Shown here: piece after piece, positions 6,894-32,937 of the stretch
Layout of the letters: every line of letters starts with the position of its first letter
Position numbering within the stretch: the first letter of the stretch is position 1
Assembly: GCF_001411805.1 (NCBI RefSeq)
Contig: NZ_CP007213.1
Coordinates: 3,596,001 to 3,660,000 of the forward strand
Source: Burkholderia plantarii
Lineage (GTDB): Bacteria > Pseudomonadota > Gammaproteobacteria > Burkholderiales > Burkholderiaceae
Length of the DNA: 64,000 bases
Direction: 5' to 3'
Notes under the pieces: generated by a model
Database searches by the model: none
Seen by the model: only the letters and a program-made list of their open reading frames with translations
Told to the model about the DNA's origin: nothing
Made by a program: the position numbers and the translations under genes

Positions 6894-10067
<3,174 letters not shown>

Positions 10068-27768: not shown

Positions 27769-30700
27769 TCACGCATCGTCGCGCGACGCATTCGCCGACG
27801 CCGGCTCGGCCAGCGCGTGGCGGATCGCGTCGATCGGCACGAAATCGAGCCCCGAGTCGGCCGCGAGGATCTGCTCGGGCGGCACCGGCCGGCCCACCGC
27901 GTAGCCCTGCACGTAGTCCACGCCGATCGCGCGCAGCGCCTCGAAGGTCCGGGTGTCCTCGACCCACTCGGCGATGGTGCGCATGCCGAGGTTCTTGGCC
28001 AGATCGACGATCGATTCGACGATCGCGATGTCGGCCGGATGCTCGCACATGGTCCGCACGAACTCGCCGTCGATCTTCAGCGCGTCGGCCGACAACGCCT
28101 TCAGGTACTTGAACGACGTGTGGCCCGCGCCGAAATCGTCGAGCGCGATGCGGATCCCCATGTCGTGCGCGCGCGCCACGAAGTGCTGGCTCGTCTTCAG
28201 GTCGTGCAGCGCGACCGTCTCGGTGATCTCCAGGCACAGCAGGTGCGCGATCGAGGCGTGCGCCTCCAGGCGCCGGAACATCTCGGCCACGATGCGCTCG
28301 TCGTTCAGCGACGCGCCGCTCAGGTTCACGCAGATGAAGCGCGTCTTGGCGAGCCTCGCCTGATTGCGCTCGACCCAGTCGAGCACCGACGACAGCACCC
28401 ACAGATCGATCGCGCCGATGGTGCCGAGCCGCTCGACCGCGTCGATGAAGTCGGCCGCGCTGAGGATCGTGCCGTCCTCGCGCTTCAGGCGCAGCAGCAC
28501 CTCGAAATCGAGCGCCTCGCCCGCGTGCGTGACCGACACGATCGGCTGCATCGCGAGCACCAGCCCCTCGGGGATCGCATCCTCGCTGAGCGTGCCGATC
28601 AGCGCGATGTCGCGCATGCGGCGTTCGAAGTCGCGCGAATCGCTGCGGTAGACGATCATCCGGCCGGTGCCGTCGCGCTTCGATTCGCGGCAGGCCAGGT
28701 CGGCGTGCGCGATCATGTCGTGGACCGACATCGTCGGCAGGCACTCCACCACGCCGATCGAGGCGCGCACGCGCACGGTGCGGTTGCCGATCTGATAGGG
28801 CTGCGCGCTGATCGTCTCGGCGAGCTGCGCGCAGAGCGCGGCGGCCTCGTCCACGTCGATCTCGGCGAACACGCAGACGAACTCGTCGCCGCCGATCCGG
28901 CCGATCACGCCGCGCCGCGCGAGGCAGCCCGTCATGCGCGCGACCAGCTGGCAGAGCACCTCGTCGCCGGCCGCGTGGCCGAACATGTCGTTGATCACCT
29001 TGAACGGCTCGAGATCGACGTAGGCGACCGACCAGCGCGCGCGCGTGCCGGCCAGCGCCTCCAGCCGGCGCTCGATGCCGCGCCGGTTCAGCGCGCCCGT
29101 CAGCGAATCGTGGTCGGCCAGGAAATGCAGCCGCTCCAGCGCCTCGGCGCGCTCGGTCACCTCCTCGATCGAGCCTTCGTAGGCATCCTCGGAAAAGATC
29201 GCGCGCACCGAATAGCGGCGCTGCGCGGTGCCGACCGCGGCCGAGCCGTTGATCTCGATCGCGCCCGCGCCGTCCTGCCGCGCGAGTTCGCAGAGGCGCC
29301 CCCAGGCGCCGGCGTCGAAGAACTCGGTCCAGTAGCGCATGCGATAGGCGTCGTGCTCCAGCGACAGCATCGACAGCAGCGCCGGGTTGGCGCGCGTGAA
29401 GCGGCCGCCCGGATCGAGCGTGAACAGGCCGATCGGCGTGAGCGCGTAGGTGTTGCGCAGATCGGATTCGGACTTGCGGCGGCGCCGGCGGTCGGCGCGC
29501 AGCTGCTCGGCGATCGCGAACGCCGCGAGCATGCTCGAGGCGAGCGAGGTGGCCACCGGGTTCAGCCCGCCGAACAGCAGCCGCGTGCCGAGCGCGGCCG
29601 AGAACACTTCCGAGAGGATCGCGAACAGCACGACGCTCAGCGACGCGGCGTACCAGATCATGGTGCGCGTGCGCGCGCGCCACAGCATCTGCCCGAGCAA
29701 CAGCAGCAGCACCAGCATGCCCGCGCCCGCCAGCGTCCAGAGCAGCGGGATGAACCAGCGGTACGGCAGCACGAACGCGAGCGGCAGCAGCACGCCGCCG
29801 CCGATCTGCACCGCCTTGAGCAGCCACTGCAGCGGCAGCTGCGCCAGCTCGCGCCGGAACAGCCGCACGAACAGCGAGACCGTGACCATGTAGTAGACCG
29901 CGAACGTCACCTGCCGGATCAGGTCGATCCAGGCCGGCGAGAGCAGGTGGTCGAGCCAGACGTCGTCGAAGCCGAGCGCGTTCGCGGCGAGCCGCTGGTT
30001 GCCCACCAGCCAGACCGCGAACACGATGTAGGTCCATTCGCGATTGATCAGCGCGATCACGAAGATGAAGACCGCCAGCGTGAGCAAGCCGCCGCTGATC
30101 AGCGAGGCGTTGCGCTCGAACTGCAGGCGCGTCTCCACCAGCGCGGCGCGCGACAGCCGGCTCGCCGTCACATAGGCCGGGCCGCCGTACAGGCCGCGGC
30201 ACAGCACCGGCGCCGGTTCATCTGGTGCGCCGGGGGCGGCAAGCGCGTCGAGCCGCAGCGCGAAGCCGGTGCCGGCCGCGCGCAGCGCGCCGTGCGTCGC
30301 GATCCGTTCGGCGTTGCCGAGCGGCGCCAGCGTGCGGGCGTTCCAGCACGACAGCGAGCGGGCGTGCCGCGAGGGGAACGCCAGGTAGTCGTGCGGATCA
30401 TGCGGGTCGTGCAAAGCGGGAGTGGTGCCGCTGGCGGATGCGGCCATCGAGGCCATCGGTTGGGCGCCGGGATCGAGCAGCATCCAGACCGGCTGCTCGG
30501 ACAGGCGCGTGCCGAAGCGCGTCGTGACGGGCGCGTCGCGCGCGGCAGCCAGCGCGTCGGCCGGCGAGGCCTCGCCGCCGCGGTCGAGCCAGGCGCGAAA
30601 GCCGAGCGGCGTCGCATCGATGATGCCGTCGCTCGATGGCGAGATCGTCAGGAACAGCACGGTCGATATCACCAGCAGCGCGGGCACCAGATGGATCGAG

Positions 30701-30777
30701 AAAACGTCGAACCAGCGGTCGAAGCGACGTCCGCCAGCCAGCTGTCTGAACCCTGATGCCCATCCTGACAGCCGCAT
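27769..30777 (-). CDS. Membrane GGDEF-EAL protein (c-di-GMP turnover)
   Basis: The 1002-aa protein starts with a membrane anchor, a periplasmic segment (about residues 50-215), then a block of seven or so membrane helices (about 220-425) arranged like 7TM-DISM sensors. A PAS-like domain, a GGDEF domain (IGGDEF at 628-633, intact active site) and an EAL domain follow. In EAL the first motif is EVL (759-761); the NLSG, EITE, DDFGAGHTSF and K-ID catalytic segments are present, so both synthesis and hydrolysis of c-di-GMP are possible. ATG 30777 has AGGAG at ideal spacing and is preferred over ATG 30786. It lies 68 bp after a FeeM-like acyl amino acid synthase gene and may share its transcript. 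Confidence 0.93.
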   Translation of the reverse strand: MRLSGWASGFRQLAGGRRFDRWFDVFSIHLVPALLVISTVLFLTISPSSDGIIDATPLGFRAWLDRGGEASPADALAAARDAPVTTRFGTRLSEQPVWMLLDPGAQPMASMAASASGTTPALHDPHDPHDYLAFPSRHARSLSCWNARTLAPLGNAERIATHGALRAAGTGFALRLDALAAPGAPDEPAPVLCRGLYGGPAYVTASRLSRAALVETRLQFERNASLISGGLLTLAVFIFVIALINREWTYIVFAVWLVGNQRLAANALGFDDVWLDHLLSPAWIDLIRQVTFAVYYMVTVSLFVRLFRRELAQLPLQWLLKAVQIGGGVLLPLAFVLPYRWFIPLLWTLAGAGMLVLLLLLGQMLWRARTRTMIWYAASLSVVLFAILSEVFSAALGTRLLFGGLNPVATSLASSMLAAFAIAEQLRADRRRRRKSESDLRNTYALTPIGLFTLDPGGRFTRANPALLSMLSLEHDAYRMRYWTEFFDAGAWGRLCELARQDGAGAIEINGSAAVGTAQRRYSVRAIFSEDAYEGSIEEVTERAEALERLHFLADHDSLTGALNRRGIERRLEALAGTRARWSVAYVDLEPFKVINDMFGHAAGDEVLCQLVARMTGCLARRGVIGRIGGDEFVCVFAEIDVDEAAALCAQLAETISAQPYQIGNRTVRVRASIGVVECLPTMSVHDMIAHADLACRESKRDGTGRMIVYRSDSRDFERRMRDIALIGTLSEDAIPEGLVLAMQPIVSVTHAGEALDFEVLLRLKREDGTILSAADFIDAVERLGTIGAIDLWVLSSVLDWVERNQARLAKTRFICVNLSGASLNDERIVAEMFRRLEAHASIAHLLCLEITETVALHDLKTSQHFVARAHDMGIRIALDDFGAGHTSFKYLKALSADALKIDGEFVRTMCEHPADIAIVESIVDLAKNLGMRTIAEWVEDTRTFEALRAIGVDYVQGYAVGRPVPPEQILAADSGLDFVPIDAIRHALAEPASANASRDDA

Positions 30778-30845
30778 GTCTGTCATCTCCTGTCGCGCGC
30801 CGAAACCTTCCCGATTCTAATGGCCTTGCTCCTGATTCGCTGTTA

Positions 30846-31523
30846 TTAATTCTCATCAGGAAGTAATGCAATTTGATCAACGCCTTTGGGTCGATGACCG
30901 GAAGCCCGCGACGGGCGCGGGGTGACGTCGATGTCCGGGTGCTGCGTCTCGAACATGCAGCCGTAGAGCGGATGCTGGACTTCGGCCCAGCGGCGCTGGG
31001 CCGAGGCCACGCGCTTGGCCATCAGGCGGTGCGCCTGGCCGTCGAGATGCGTCATCGGAAAGGTTTCGTGCGCGCCGTGGACGTCGTCGAACAGCATCGC
31101 CTCGAAATCGCGGTCGAGCGGCGCGCGCGTGGCGATCACGACCCAGTCGATCGCGGCCGCCCGGCAATAGGTCAGGAGCGCCTTGCAGAGCGCCACCTTG
31201 ACCGCGCGGCCCATCAGGCCGTCGCGCACCGCGAGCTGGGTCGCCTCGGCGAGCCGGCAGCCCGCCATCTCCGGCGGCAGCGCCACTGACGCCTCGAGCG
31301 GCAGCGGCCCGTGCGCATTGCTCTGGATGCGCATCGTGCCGACCGGCTCGTGATCGAGCCGCGACTGCGCCAGCAGGACCACCGCGTCGCGGCCACGGTC
31401 GCCGGCCTCGGCACGGATCGTGAAAGGCAGCCGCTCGCTGCGCGACGGCAGTTCGGCGGGCGGGGTGAGCGGATTCGCGAGCAGCGATTCGTCTACGAGA
31501 AACGACGGATTGGCGCGATCCAT
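30846..31523 (-). CDS. FeeM-like N-acyl amino acid synthase
   Basis: The 225-aa protein resembles the FeeM family of GNAT-fold N-acyl amino acid synthases, relatives of acyl-homoserine-lactone synthases that use acyl carrier protein donors. Matching segments are VGTMRIQSN and LPLEASVALP, the CRLAEATQLAVRDGLMGRAVKVALCKA helix, IDWVVIATRAPLDRDFEAMLF, and the C-terminal RRWAEVQHPLYGCMFETQHPDI. It lacks the conserved LuxI N-terminal Arg/Trp pattern, so a lactone product is unlikely. Start ATG 31523 has a GGAG Shine-Dalgarno. It is directly upstream of the GGDEF-EAL gene. The product and partner amino acid are unknown. Confidence 0.78.
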   Translation of the reverse strand: MDRANPSFLVDESLLANPLTPPAELPSRSERLPFTIRAEAGDRGRDAVVLLAQSRLDHEPVGTMRIQSNAHGPLPLEASVALPPEMAGCRLAEATQLAVRDGLMGRAVKVALCKALLTYCRAAAIDWVVIATRAPLDRDFEAMLFDDVHGAHETFPMTHLDGQAHRLMAKRVASAQRRWAEVQHPLYGCMFETQHPDIDVTPRPSRASGHRPKGVDQIALLPDEN

Positions 31524-32194
31524 GATGAACTCCGTGGCATGACTTGCGAGTAAAAAGGAACGTCGCGTGAAATATCCTCGATCAGGTCGATCGCGGCTGC
31601 CACCCGAATCCCACGGCCATGGTGAATCGGAATGCCACGAAAACCCCCAATAATCGGGATAAGGGATTTTTTAATGAGGAGCTCGATTCTTCACACTACA
31701 ATGTGCCATACATCAAAGTAGGGATCGTTCGGCGCCGCAACGGCCTCATGCCGGCCTCCCGCGCCATGCATGGCGGGGGCTCGCGGCGCGGTCCGCAGAC
31801 GATTCTACGCGGTTTCGCATGGTTTTCGCATGACCACGCCGCGCGCAAAAATCGATTTCCACTTGTTTCCAATATCCGGACAAAATCCCGCTCTTTTAGT
31901 GCTTTGTTGTCGATAAAACTGATATTTCCTACAGGATGCCTGTGTCATGCCGGGGAAATATGGCAATGTCGGCGAACGCGCCGGCGAAGTGCTGGAACCG
32001 GGATGACCGCGGCGCGGCGGCCGGTGCCGGGCGGGTCGTGCCATTGTTTCCTGGTCTCGTTATCCCGTCGTTCGGGGGAGTGAGGGAAATCGGGCGCACG
32101 CGGTCGGCGCGCGCCGCTGTCTGGCGGCGTCCCGGCCGCGATGACGGCCGGGCGAAGCGGTCACGCGCGGCGTGCGCCGCCGCGTGACGACGCC
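31524..32194. other. Long AT-richer intergenic region
   Basis: About 670 bp upstream of the acyl amino acid synthase gene. GC drops between about 31620 and 31960. It must hold the promoter of the two-gene signalling unit, but no consensus boxes stood out. A 154-codon ORF on the plus strand (31619-32083) has no recognisable features and is not called. Confidence 0.4.
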
Positions 32195-32937
32195 TCAGCC
32201 TGCCGCGCGCGTTCGCTGCCGCTGCTCGCCGAGGCCGGCGATGCCGAGTCGCACGGTCTGCCCCGGCCTGAGGTAGACGGGCGACGGCTTCACGCCCATG
32301 CCGACGCCGGGCGGCGTGCCGGTGCAGATCACGTCGCCGGGCTGCAGGCTCATGCAGCGCGACAGATAAGCGATCACCTTCGCCACGCTGAAGATCATCG
32401 TTCGCGTGTTGCCGTTCTGGTAGCGATGGCCGTCGACCTCGAGCCACGGATCGGGCTGCAGCGGATCCGCGATCTCGTCGCGGGCCGAACGTGTCGAACC
32501 CCTTGCCCTTGTCCCACTGGCCGCCGCGCTCGATCTGCCATTCGCGCTCGGACACGTCGTTGATGACGCAATAGCCGGCCACGTAGTCGAGCGCGCTCGC
32601 CTCGTCCACGTGCTTGCACTCGCGGCCGATCACGACGCCGAGTTCGACCTCCCAGTCGGCTTTCACCGAATCCCGCGGGATCTCGATGCCGTCGTCCGGC
32701 CCGCAGACGGCGCTGGTCCACTTCGCGAACACCACCGGCTCGGCCGGCACCGGCAGGCCCGATTCCGCCGCGTGATCGGCATAGTTGAGGCCGATGCAGA
32801 CGAACTTGCCGATCCCGCCCACGCAGGCGCCGATCCTAGGCTCGCCCGGCACCAGCGGCAGCGAATCCGGATCGAGGCCGCGCATCGAGCAGGCCGGGCT
32901 TTTCCTGGCCCAGCGGGCCATAACGCAACAGTTTCAT
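32195..32937 (-). pseudogene. Fumarylacetoacetate hydrolase family gene, disrupted by two frameshifting deletions
   Basis: The start MKLLRYGPLGQEKPGLLDA at 32937 (strong GGAGG Shine-Dalgarno) loses frame at about 32880, where roughly 28-30 family residues are missing. The next frame covers PLVPGEPRIGACVGGIGKFVCIGLNYADHAAE through GKGFDTFGP, then a second deletion of about 23 bp at about 32483 shifts the frame again before RDEIADPLQPDPW and the C-terminal MSLQPGDVICTGTPPGVGMG block. Intact relatives are about 280 residues; this locus is some 106 nt short. Family members include 2,4-diketo-3-deoxy-L-fuconate hydrolases. The metal-ligand and CTGTPPGVG motifs survive, so decay looks recent. Confidence 0.85.

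Follow-up and report, generated by a model that had tools for sequence, protein, structure and literature searches.

A FeeM-related acyltransferase gene and a 7TM GGDEF-EAL sensor gene form a conserved pair in Burkholderiales, with an altered acyltransferase in Burkholderia plantarii

RpfF, the synthase of the RpfF/RpfR system, is a crotonase-fold enzyme and not FeeM-like, and its partner RpfR is not known to have a 7TM block. rpfF and rpfR are convergent, whereas the two genes of the FeeM-related pair reported here lie on the same strand in nearly all loci and tail to tail in a few. RpfR has FI and PAS domains, whereas the receptor of our pair has a 7TM block and its synthase is related to PF21926, which sets the pair apart from RpfF/RpfR. 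The two systems are alike in that the gene of a synthase using acyl-ACP (presumably so in our pair) adjoins the gene of a GGDEF-EAL receptor, with c-di-GMP as the output and Burkholderiales as the hosts (PMC6361424, PMC8846402, as far as the available text of both goes). According to the accessible part of the report, the binding site of the fatty-acid signal is the PAS domain of RpfR, and the receptor restrains the synthase RpfF by means of a further domain (PMC6361424).

A FeeM-type domain is tied to c-di-GMP also in Nas343 and Nas354, where one protein combines it with the c-di-GMP binder PilZ; our pair consists of two proteins, of which the partner would make or break c-di-GMP. In the available text, the authors proposed, without demonstration, that c-di-GMP acts upstream of the Nas-PilZ enzymes (PMC4897644), and a subset of canonical N-acyl amino acid synthases is linked to PEP-CTERM/exosortase systems, as cited there. 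These canonical enzymes belong to the same Pfam family as our subfamily, PF21926, and their catalytic Glu aligns with that of the subfamily, but within the order the highest-scoring core members reach 196 bits and the subfamily about 23–44 bits in the cases seen. A cluster with an N-acyl amino acid synthase, as yet uncharacterised, was reported to be under a quorum-sensing-linked regulator in B. gladioli BBB-01; neither GGDEF nor c-di-GMP is mentioned in the main text (PMC13067344). Receptors of the 7TMR-DISM GGDEF/EAL type share the 7TM-DISM block and the GGDEF-EAL output with our sensor; their DISMED2 domain is predicted to bind carbohydrates (PMC8846402, available part), and glucose-6-phosphate is reported as a ligand of SagS (PMC8544897, likewise). 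In the limited body of literature searched, which comprised few subscription papers and no bioRxiv preprints, we came across no account of a FeeM-like gene forming a pair with the gene of a GGDEF-EAL receptor. The original prediction likewise knew of no description of the exact pair. The underlying logic has precedents in RpfF/RpfR and in the FeeM-PilZ fusions.

Within the window, by which we mean the whole stretch of 64,000 nucleotides of Burkholderia plantarii DNA that was analysed (NZ_CP007213.1, positions 3,596,001 to 3,660,000), Pfam and the spacing of the start sites bore out that a FeeM-related ORF lies directly upstream of a 7TM GGDEF-EAL gene on the same strand, 68 bp apart (Table 1). 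The upstream ORF starts with an ATG that has GGAG 6 nt upstream. For the sensor gene, AGGAG is found 9 nt before ATG 30777 but abuts ATG 30786, a spacing of the ribosome-binding site that makes ATG 30777 the likelier start and 68 bp the likelier gap. No terminator-like site was found in this gap, and no riboswitch or other known RNA across the window at gathering scores. In the Pfam scan, the window synthase matched PF21926 above the cut-off (E 4.2e-7; 30.3 bits versus 27), with no PilZ in the same chain, neither here nor in 52 aligned members, arguing against a Nas-PilZ fusion. NCBIfam gave no match for the window synthase or the 52 members, a LuxI/AHL synthase profile was matched by none of them in Pfam or NCBIfam, and a sequence search for PDB relatives of the subfamily returned no credible chain. 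An EAL search of the source genome yielded 16 matches in 8.08 Mb, two of them within one ORF.

Table 1. Positions of the two genes and their parts in the window. Residue numbers of the sensor count from ATG 30786.
Feature	Position	Strand	Description	Basis
FeeM-related acyltransferase ORF	30846..31523	-	225 aa, without 31 residues conserved in relatives	ORF calling, Pfam, alignment
Junction, residues 38|39	31409..31410	-	relatives have a segment of 31 residues with R..AY.RH at this point	coordinate from alignment
Glu93 codon	31245..31247	-	aligned with the Glu that FeeM-type synthases carry in their E-F/L-T/S-R motif	alignment; profile alignment from intact relative
Gln96 codon	31236..31238	-	Arg in 92/94 sequences	alignment
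Intergenic gap	30778..30845	-	68 bp (59 bp counted from ATG 30786)	
Membrane GGDEF-EAL protein	27769..30777	-	1002 aa from ATG 30777; 1005 aa from ATG 30786 (ORF 27769-30786)	
N-terminal hydrophobic segment, residues 28-46	30649..30705	-		hydropathy
Probable periplasmic domain, residues 47-228	30103..30648	-	periplasmic location inferred	conserved residues
7TMR-DISM_7TM block, residues 229-426	29509..30102	-	45/45 aligned sensors match at E<=0.01	Pfam
PAS-like region, residues 449-503	29278..29442	-	below cut-off in window; PAS_8 at E<=0.01 in 33/45	Pfam
GGDEF domain, residues 557-708	28663..29118	-	motif intact	
EAL domain, residues 740-967	27886..28569	-	motif EVL, catalytic residues intact	

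The sensor combines a 7TMR-DISM_7TM block with GGDEF and EAL domains that retain their catalytic residues, and so has all the features of a 7TMR-DISM GGDEF-EAL receptor. Simple hydropathy resolves five peaks within the 7TM block. The putative periplasmic domain is marked by W101 (110 of 110 sensors), S139-R140-H141 (106–107 of 110) and the cysteines Cys147 and Cys196 (105 of 110 each); in contrast to described 7TMR-DISM receptors, this N-terminal domain matches 7TMR-DISMED2 in only one of 45 aligned sensors. The residues of the GGDEF motif are kept in 105–110 and those of the EAL domain in 109–110 of the 110 sensors, the latter residues presumably playing their usual catalytic roles in the window sensor. 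An RxxD inhibition site was not found at the expected place by GGDEF.

The pair is a real two-gene module of Burkholderiales. A neighbour search with one genome per species was run on the best 80 of 220 encoded relatives (one place, L080 and L084, being counted twice), and a GGDEF/EAL-like ORF was present within 700 bp of the synthase in 79 of these 80; the adjacency extends over many genera and is not confined to this strain. All but one of the 79 partners also match the sensor region of the window, the exception (L108) being a mere piece at a contig end; at L048, the frame of the partner looks broken. At L047, the only one of the 80 loci to lack the partner, inspection by eye suggests a transposase-like ORF (7236-7970, minus strand) behind the synthase, in the place of the sensor. 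Both genes share a strand except at L096, L098, L102 and, as far as its contig goes, L108, where they are arranged tail to tail, and retention of the pair in this orientation indicates that pairing does not depend on co-transcription. The partner was likewise present in 13 of 13 further loci, which overlap partly with the other sets: seven from whole genomes and six on Paraburkholderia/Caballeronia plasmid records, the six being those read for context among the 13 plasmid or megaplasmid records found. The control consisted of PF21926 loci of other subfamilies, namely the 30 strongest among those listed for 150 genomes of the order, each with flanks of about 5 kb unless the contig was too short (in six of the 30, one flank stops within 1.6 kb). 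By the same distance criterion, a GGDEF/EAL-like ORF of a different kind was found in three of the 30, all from one family of the order, and a window-type sensor in none. With 79/80 versus 3/30, the pairing is not a matter of chance.

Genome-wide searches scored few candidates per genome, so that the following counts are lower bounds and the absences not strict. Across 399 genomes drawn evenly from the order, 19 were found with the synthase profile, source genome included, and the sensor region was present in 24 before three weak hits were dropped (G319, G347 and G445, E about 5e-4; two are broken by stops, and that of G319 spans 46 residues). Each of the 19 genomes with the synthase also has the sensor, adjacent in 18 and split in G281, where both genes sit at contig ends; in G341, one of the 18, 747 bp separate the two open frames. 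Two sensors, in G422 (L140) and G450 (L139), lack a synthase in the 16 kb read, and a second synthase copy in G425 lacks a sensor in 8 kb, with the contig ending about 1.1 kb downstream. The synthase occurs in 8 of 121 close relatives (source genome again included), and in a draw of 274 genomes of the class it was detected in the source genome only, hence in none outside the order. Sensor-profile hits outside the order were obtained in G540, G572, G636 and G688 (E 4e-16 to 1e-20); none of these sensor-like loci has a synthase within 1.5 kb, and one of five has a GGDEF-EAL-like ORF. The distance matrices of synthase and sensor correlate with r 0.947 over 106 pairs (two duplicate genomes or places included), a value not reached in any of 2000 permutations, although a high r is to be expected from shared vertical descent by itself.

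As judged from profile scores, the synthase subfamily is only distantly related to FeeM. The intact relative L030 scores 38.4 bits against PF21926; 48 of 52 aligned members reach E<=0.001, the best of them 4.6e-12, and in the search of genomes with PF21926, G128 and G175 remained below the cut-off and G079 and G191 unmatched, all four carrying the pair. Alignment of the subfamily profile with six canonical members by hhalign gave a probability of 39.7 (E 3e-4); in this alignment, the Glu of EATRL falls on that of EFTRL/EFSRF, and the R..AY.RH segment on the RMY..RGY segment of the canonical enzymes. In Nas354 this Glu is catalytic, and its exchange for Ala abolished surfactant activity, as stated in the available text (PMC4897644). 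Of the 94 subfamily sequences aligned, three pairs of which are identical, 92 retain the Glu; since L019 and L020 have Gly instead, catalysis is not universal in the subfamily. At the level of protein clusters, we considered the 174 listed from two overlapping database searches (the best 120 of 2715 and the best 120 of 267); nine of them fall outside the motif pattern, so that the Glu was not judged there, and one has Asp. An N-acyl amino acid product is conjectural for the family, being deduced from a weak family match, and doubtful in the window strain, and the database names of the B. gladioli relatives probably go back to the same Pfam match. The highest score among the clusters listed (469 bits) belongs to P0001, a relative of 376 aa with perhaps a duplicated domain.

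A feature overlooked in the original prediction is the loss of 31 residues from the window synthase, along with replacement of the motif Arg by Gln. The segment is present in 92 of the 94 aligned sequences and absent only from the window and from L014, the locus of a sister genome (G063, 90% identical), and these two are also the only ones with Gln. That the segment defines the family is our reading of the PF21926 profile, the match to which begins at position 23 in the window and at position 4 in intact L030. One of the 174 listed protein clusters, P0121, lacks it as well; its 12 members have 100% rounded identity to the window and are flagged as the window's own protein. Relative to the P0121 sequence (205 aa), the window synthase is 20 residues longer at its end (30846-30908), amounting to a changed C-terminus. 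A different in-frame deletion was seen in P0125, a cluster of three members that barely differs from P0124 of B. gladioli. An assembly error as the source of the window's deletion was ruled out, because the second genome (G063, L014) has the same in-frame gap.

By a simple counting method, with the frames of other loci running from stop to stop and thus including a few upstream codons, the dN/dS of the synthase between window and L014 was 0.24, compared with 0.15–0.28 for five other pairs in which the segment is present. As this value lies within the range of the intact pairs, the altered synthase seems to be still maintained, and a functionless pseudogene is not favoured in view of a dN/dS of 0.24 between two truncated copies; an additional pseudogene test, for which the fraction of synonymous sites was assumed, served as a guide only. 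The sensor of the window may be under somewhat weaker constraint, with a dN/dS of 0.41 versus L014 (0.10–0.30 in the same five pairs) and of 0.42–0.44 in three further comparisons involving the window or L014. Lacking segment and motif Arg, the window synthase may make nothing at all. The enzyme is probably impaired, which leaves both a receiver-only state of the strain and a non-catalytic role of the protein as live options.

The following proposal, tentative and in our estimate just short of an even call, would accommodate these observations: the family is a two-gene signal-synthase/sensor module that sets c-di-GMP, with a weak or non-catalytic synthase and a complete sensor in the window. 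It starts from the pairing, the co-inheritance, the domain make-up and the catalytic residues described above. The FeeM-related, GNAT-type acyltransferase would probably take acyl groups from acyl-ACP to form an N-acylated product, either a small molecule or a lipid. Its neighbour, the 7TM-DISM/PAS GGDEF-EAL protein, would sense this molecule or its accumulation and alter c-di-GMP, for which its intact EAL phosphodiesterase is the most likely means; sensing as well as the direction of control from synthase to sensor are part of the conjecture. In the window and the sister genome, where the synthase has lost the part that aligns with the N-terminal segment of canonical FeeM-type enzymes in addition to the motif Arg, it would be weak or non-catalytic yet still held by selection, and the complete sensor could pick up molecules from other producers. 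Arguing by analogy, our best guess is hence a synthase/receptor module resembling RpfF/RpfR, with an altered, possibly receiver-only version in the window. Points against such a module are the remoteness of the subfamily from FeeM, the synthase-less sensors of G422 and G450, the sensor-less second copy in G425, the Gly in place of Glu in L019 and L020, and the sugars or small polar molecules predicted or reported as 7TMR-DISM ligands. The idea of a self-contained pair for signal synthesis and response, put forward in the original prediction, has accordingly gained from the conserved pairing, the co-divergence and the retained c-di-GMP residues, and has lost from the weak link to FeeM and the damage to the window synthase. 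A bolder version, which we consider unlikely, is an undescribed Burkholderiales-wide system in which a 7TM GGDEF-EAL receptor sets c-di-GMP in answer to an N-acyl signal from a FeeM-type acyltransferase, and in which the sender has been damaged repeatedly in some Burkholderia lineages, the window among them, with the receiver left complete, giving rise to listener-only strains. The natural losses of the synthase provide a built-in comparison of sender-plus-receiver with possible receiver-only strains.

Control might also run in the reverse direction, with the GGDEF-EAL protein sensing an outside cue and local c-di-GMP or direct contact tuning the acyltransferase, the product of which would be a surfactant or membrane lipid for surface motility or dispersal. 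FeeM-type synthases fused to PilZ make N-acyltyrosine surfactants (PMC4897644), and the FI domain of RpfR directly inhibits RpfF (PMC6361424), as the available portions of these reports have it; however, PilZ is missing from the subfamily, with PF21926 as the sole Pfam family among 52 members, and we regard this direction of control as rather unlikely. It is less probable still that the FeeM-like protein serves as a non-catalytic partner of the sensor, binding acyl-ACP or a lipid, with catalysis being dispensable in several lineages. The synthases of the window and L014 lack the segment, yet their dN/dS lies inside the range of the five intact pairs, and the loss of Glu in L019 and L020 and the different deletion in P0125 would be in line with such a role, but the presence of Glu and of the segment in 92 of 94 sequences each points to catalysis in most members. 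We consider it improbable that the pair is a conserved neighbourhood without signalling logic, made up of independent genes that descent and transfer have left side by side: its restriction to 19 of 399 genomes of the order and its occurrence on 13 plasmid or megaplasmid records are as expected of a passenger cassette, but retention in inverted orientation and nearly perfect co-occurrence are not readily accounted for unless the two genes are functionally linked.

Some minor observations concern the surroundings of the pair. In the window, an ORF of the fumarylacetoacetate-hydrolase family (31929-32921, minus strand) matches its profile with residues 13-147 only (profile positions 46-180 of 284), and as the rest is unmatched, it looks frameshifted. 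A further GGDEF/EAL-like ORF lies near the pair in many Caballeronia and some Paraburkholderia loci (for example L043-L046, L068 and L070), and in Caballeronia it is often encoded on the other strand, some 1 kb upstream of the synthase; the count is 38 of 79 loci when L048 and L108 are included, where the extra match is a piece of the partner itself. At three canonical PF21926 loci, L201, L204 and L207 (G103, G192 and G149, all of family f32), an open frame of 876-895 aa shows a GGDEF/EAL-like match at a distance of about 350-380 bp from where the FeeM domain is matched, so that acyl-amino-acid synthases may have been linked to c-di-GMP a second time and independently.
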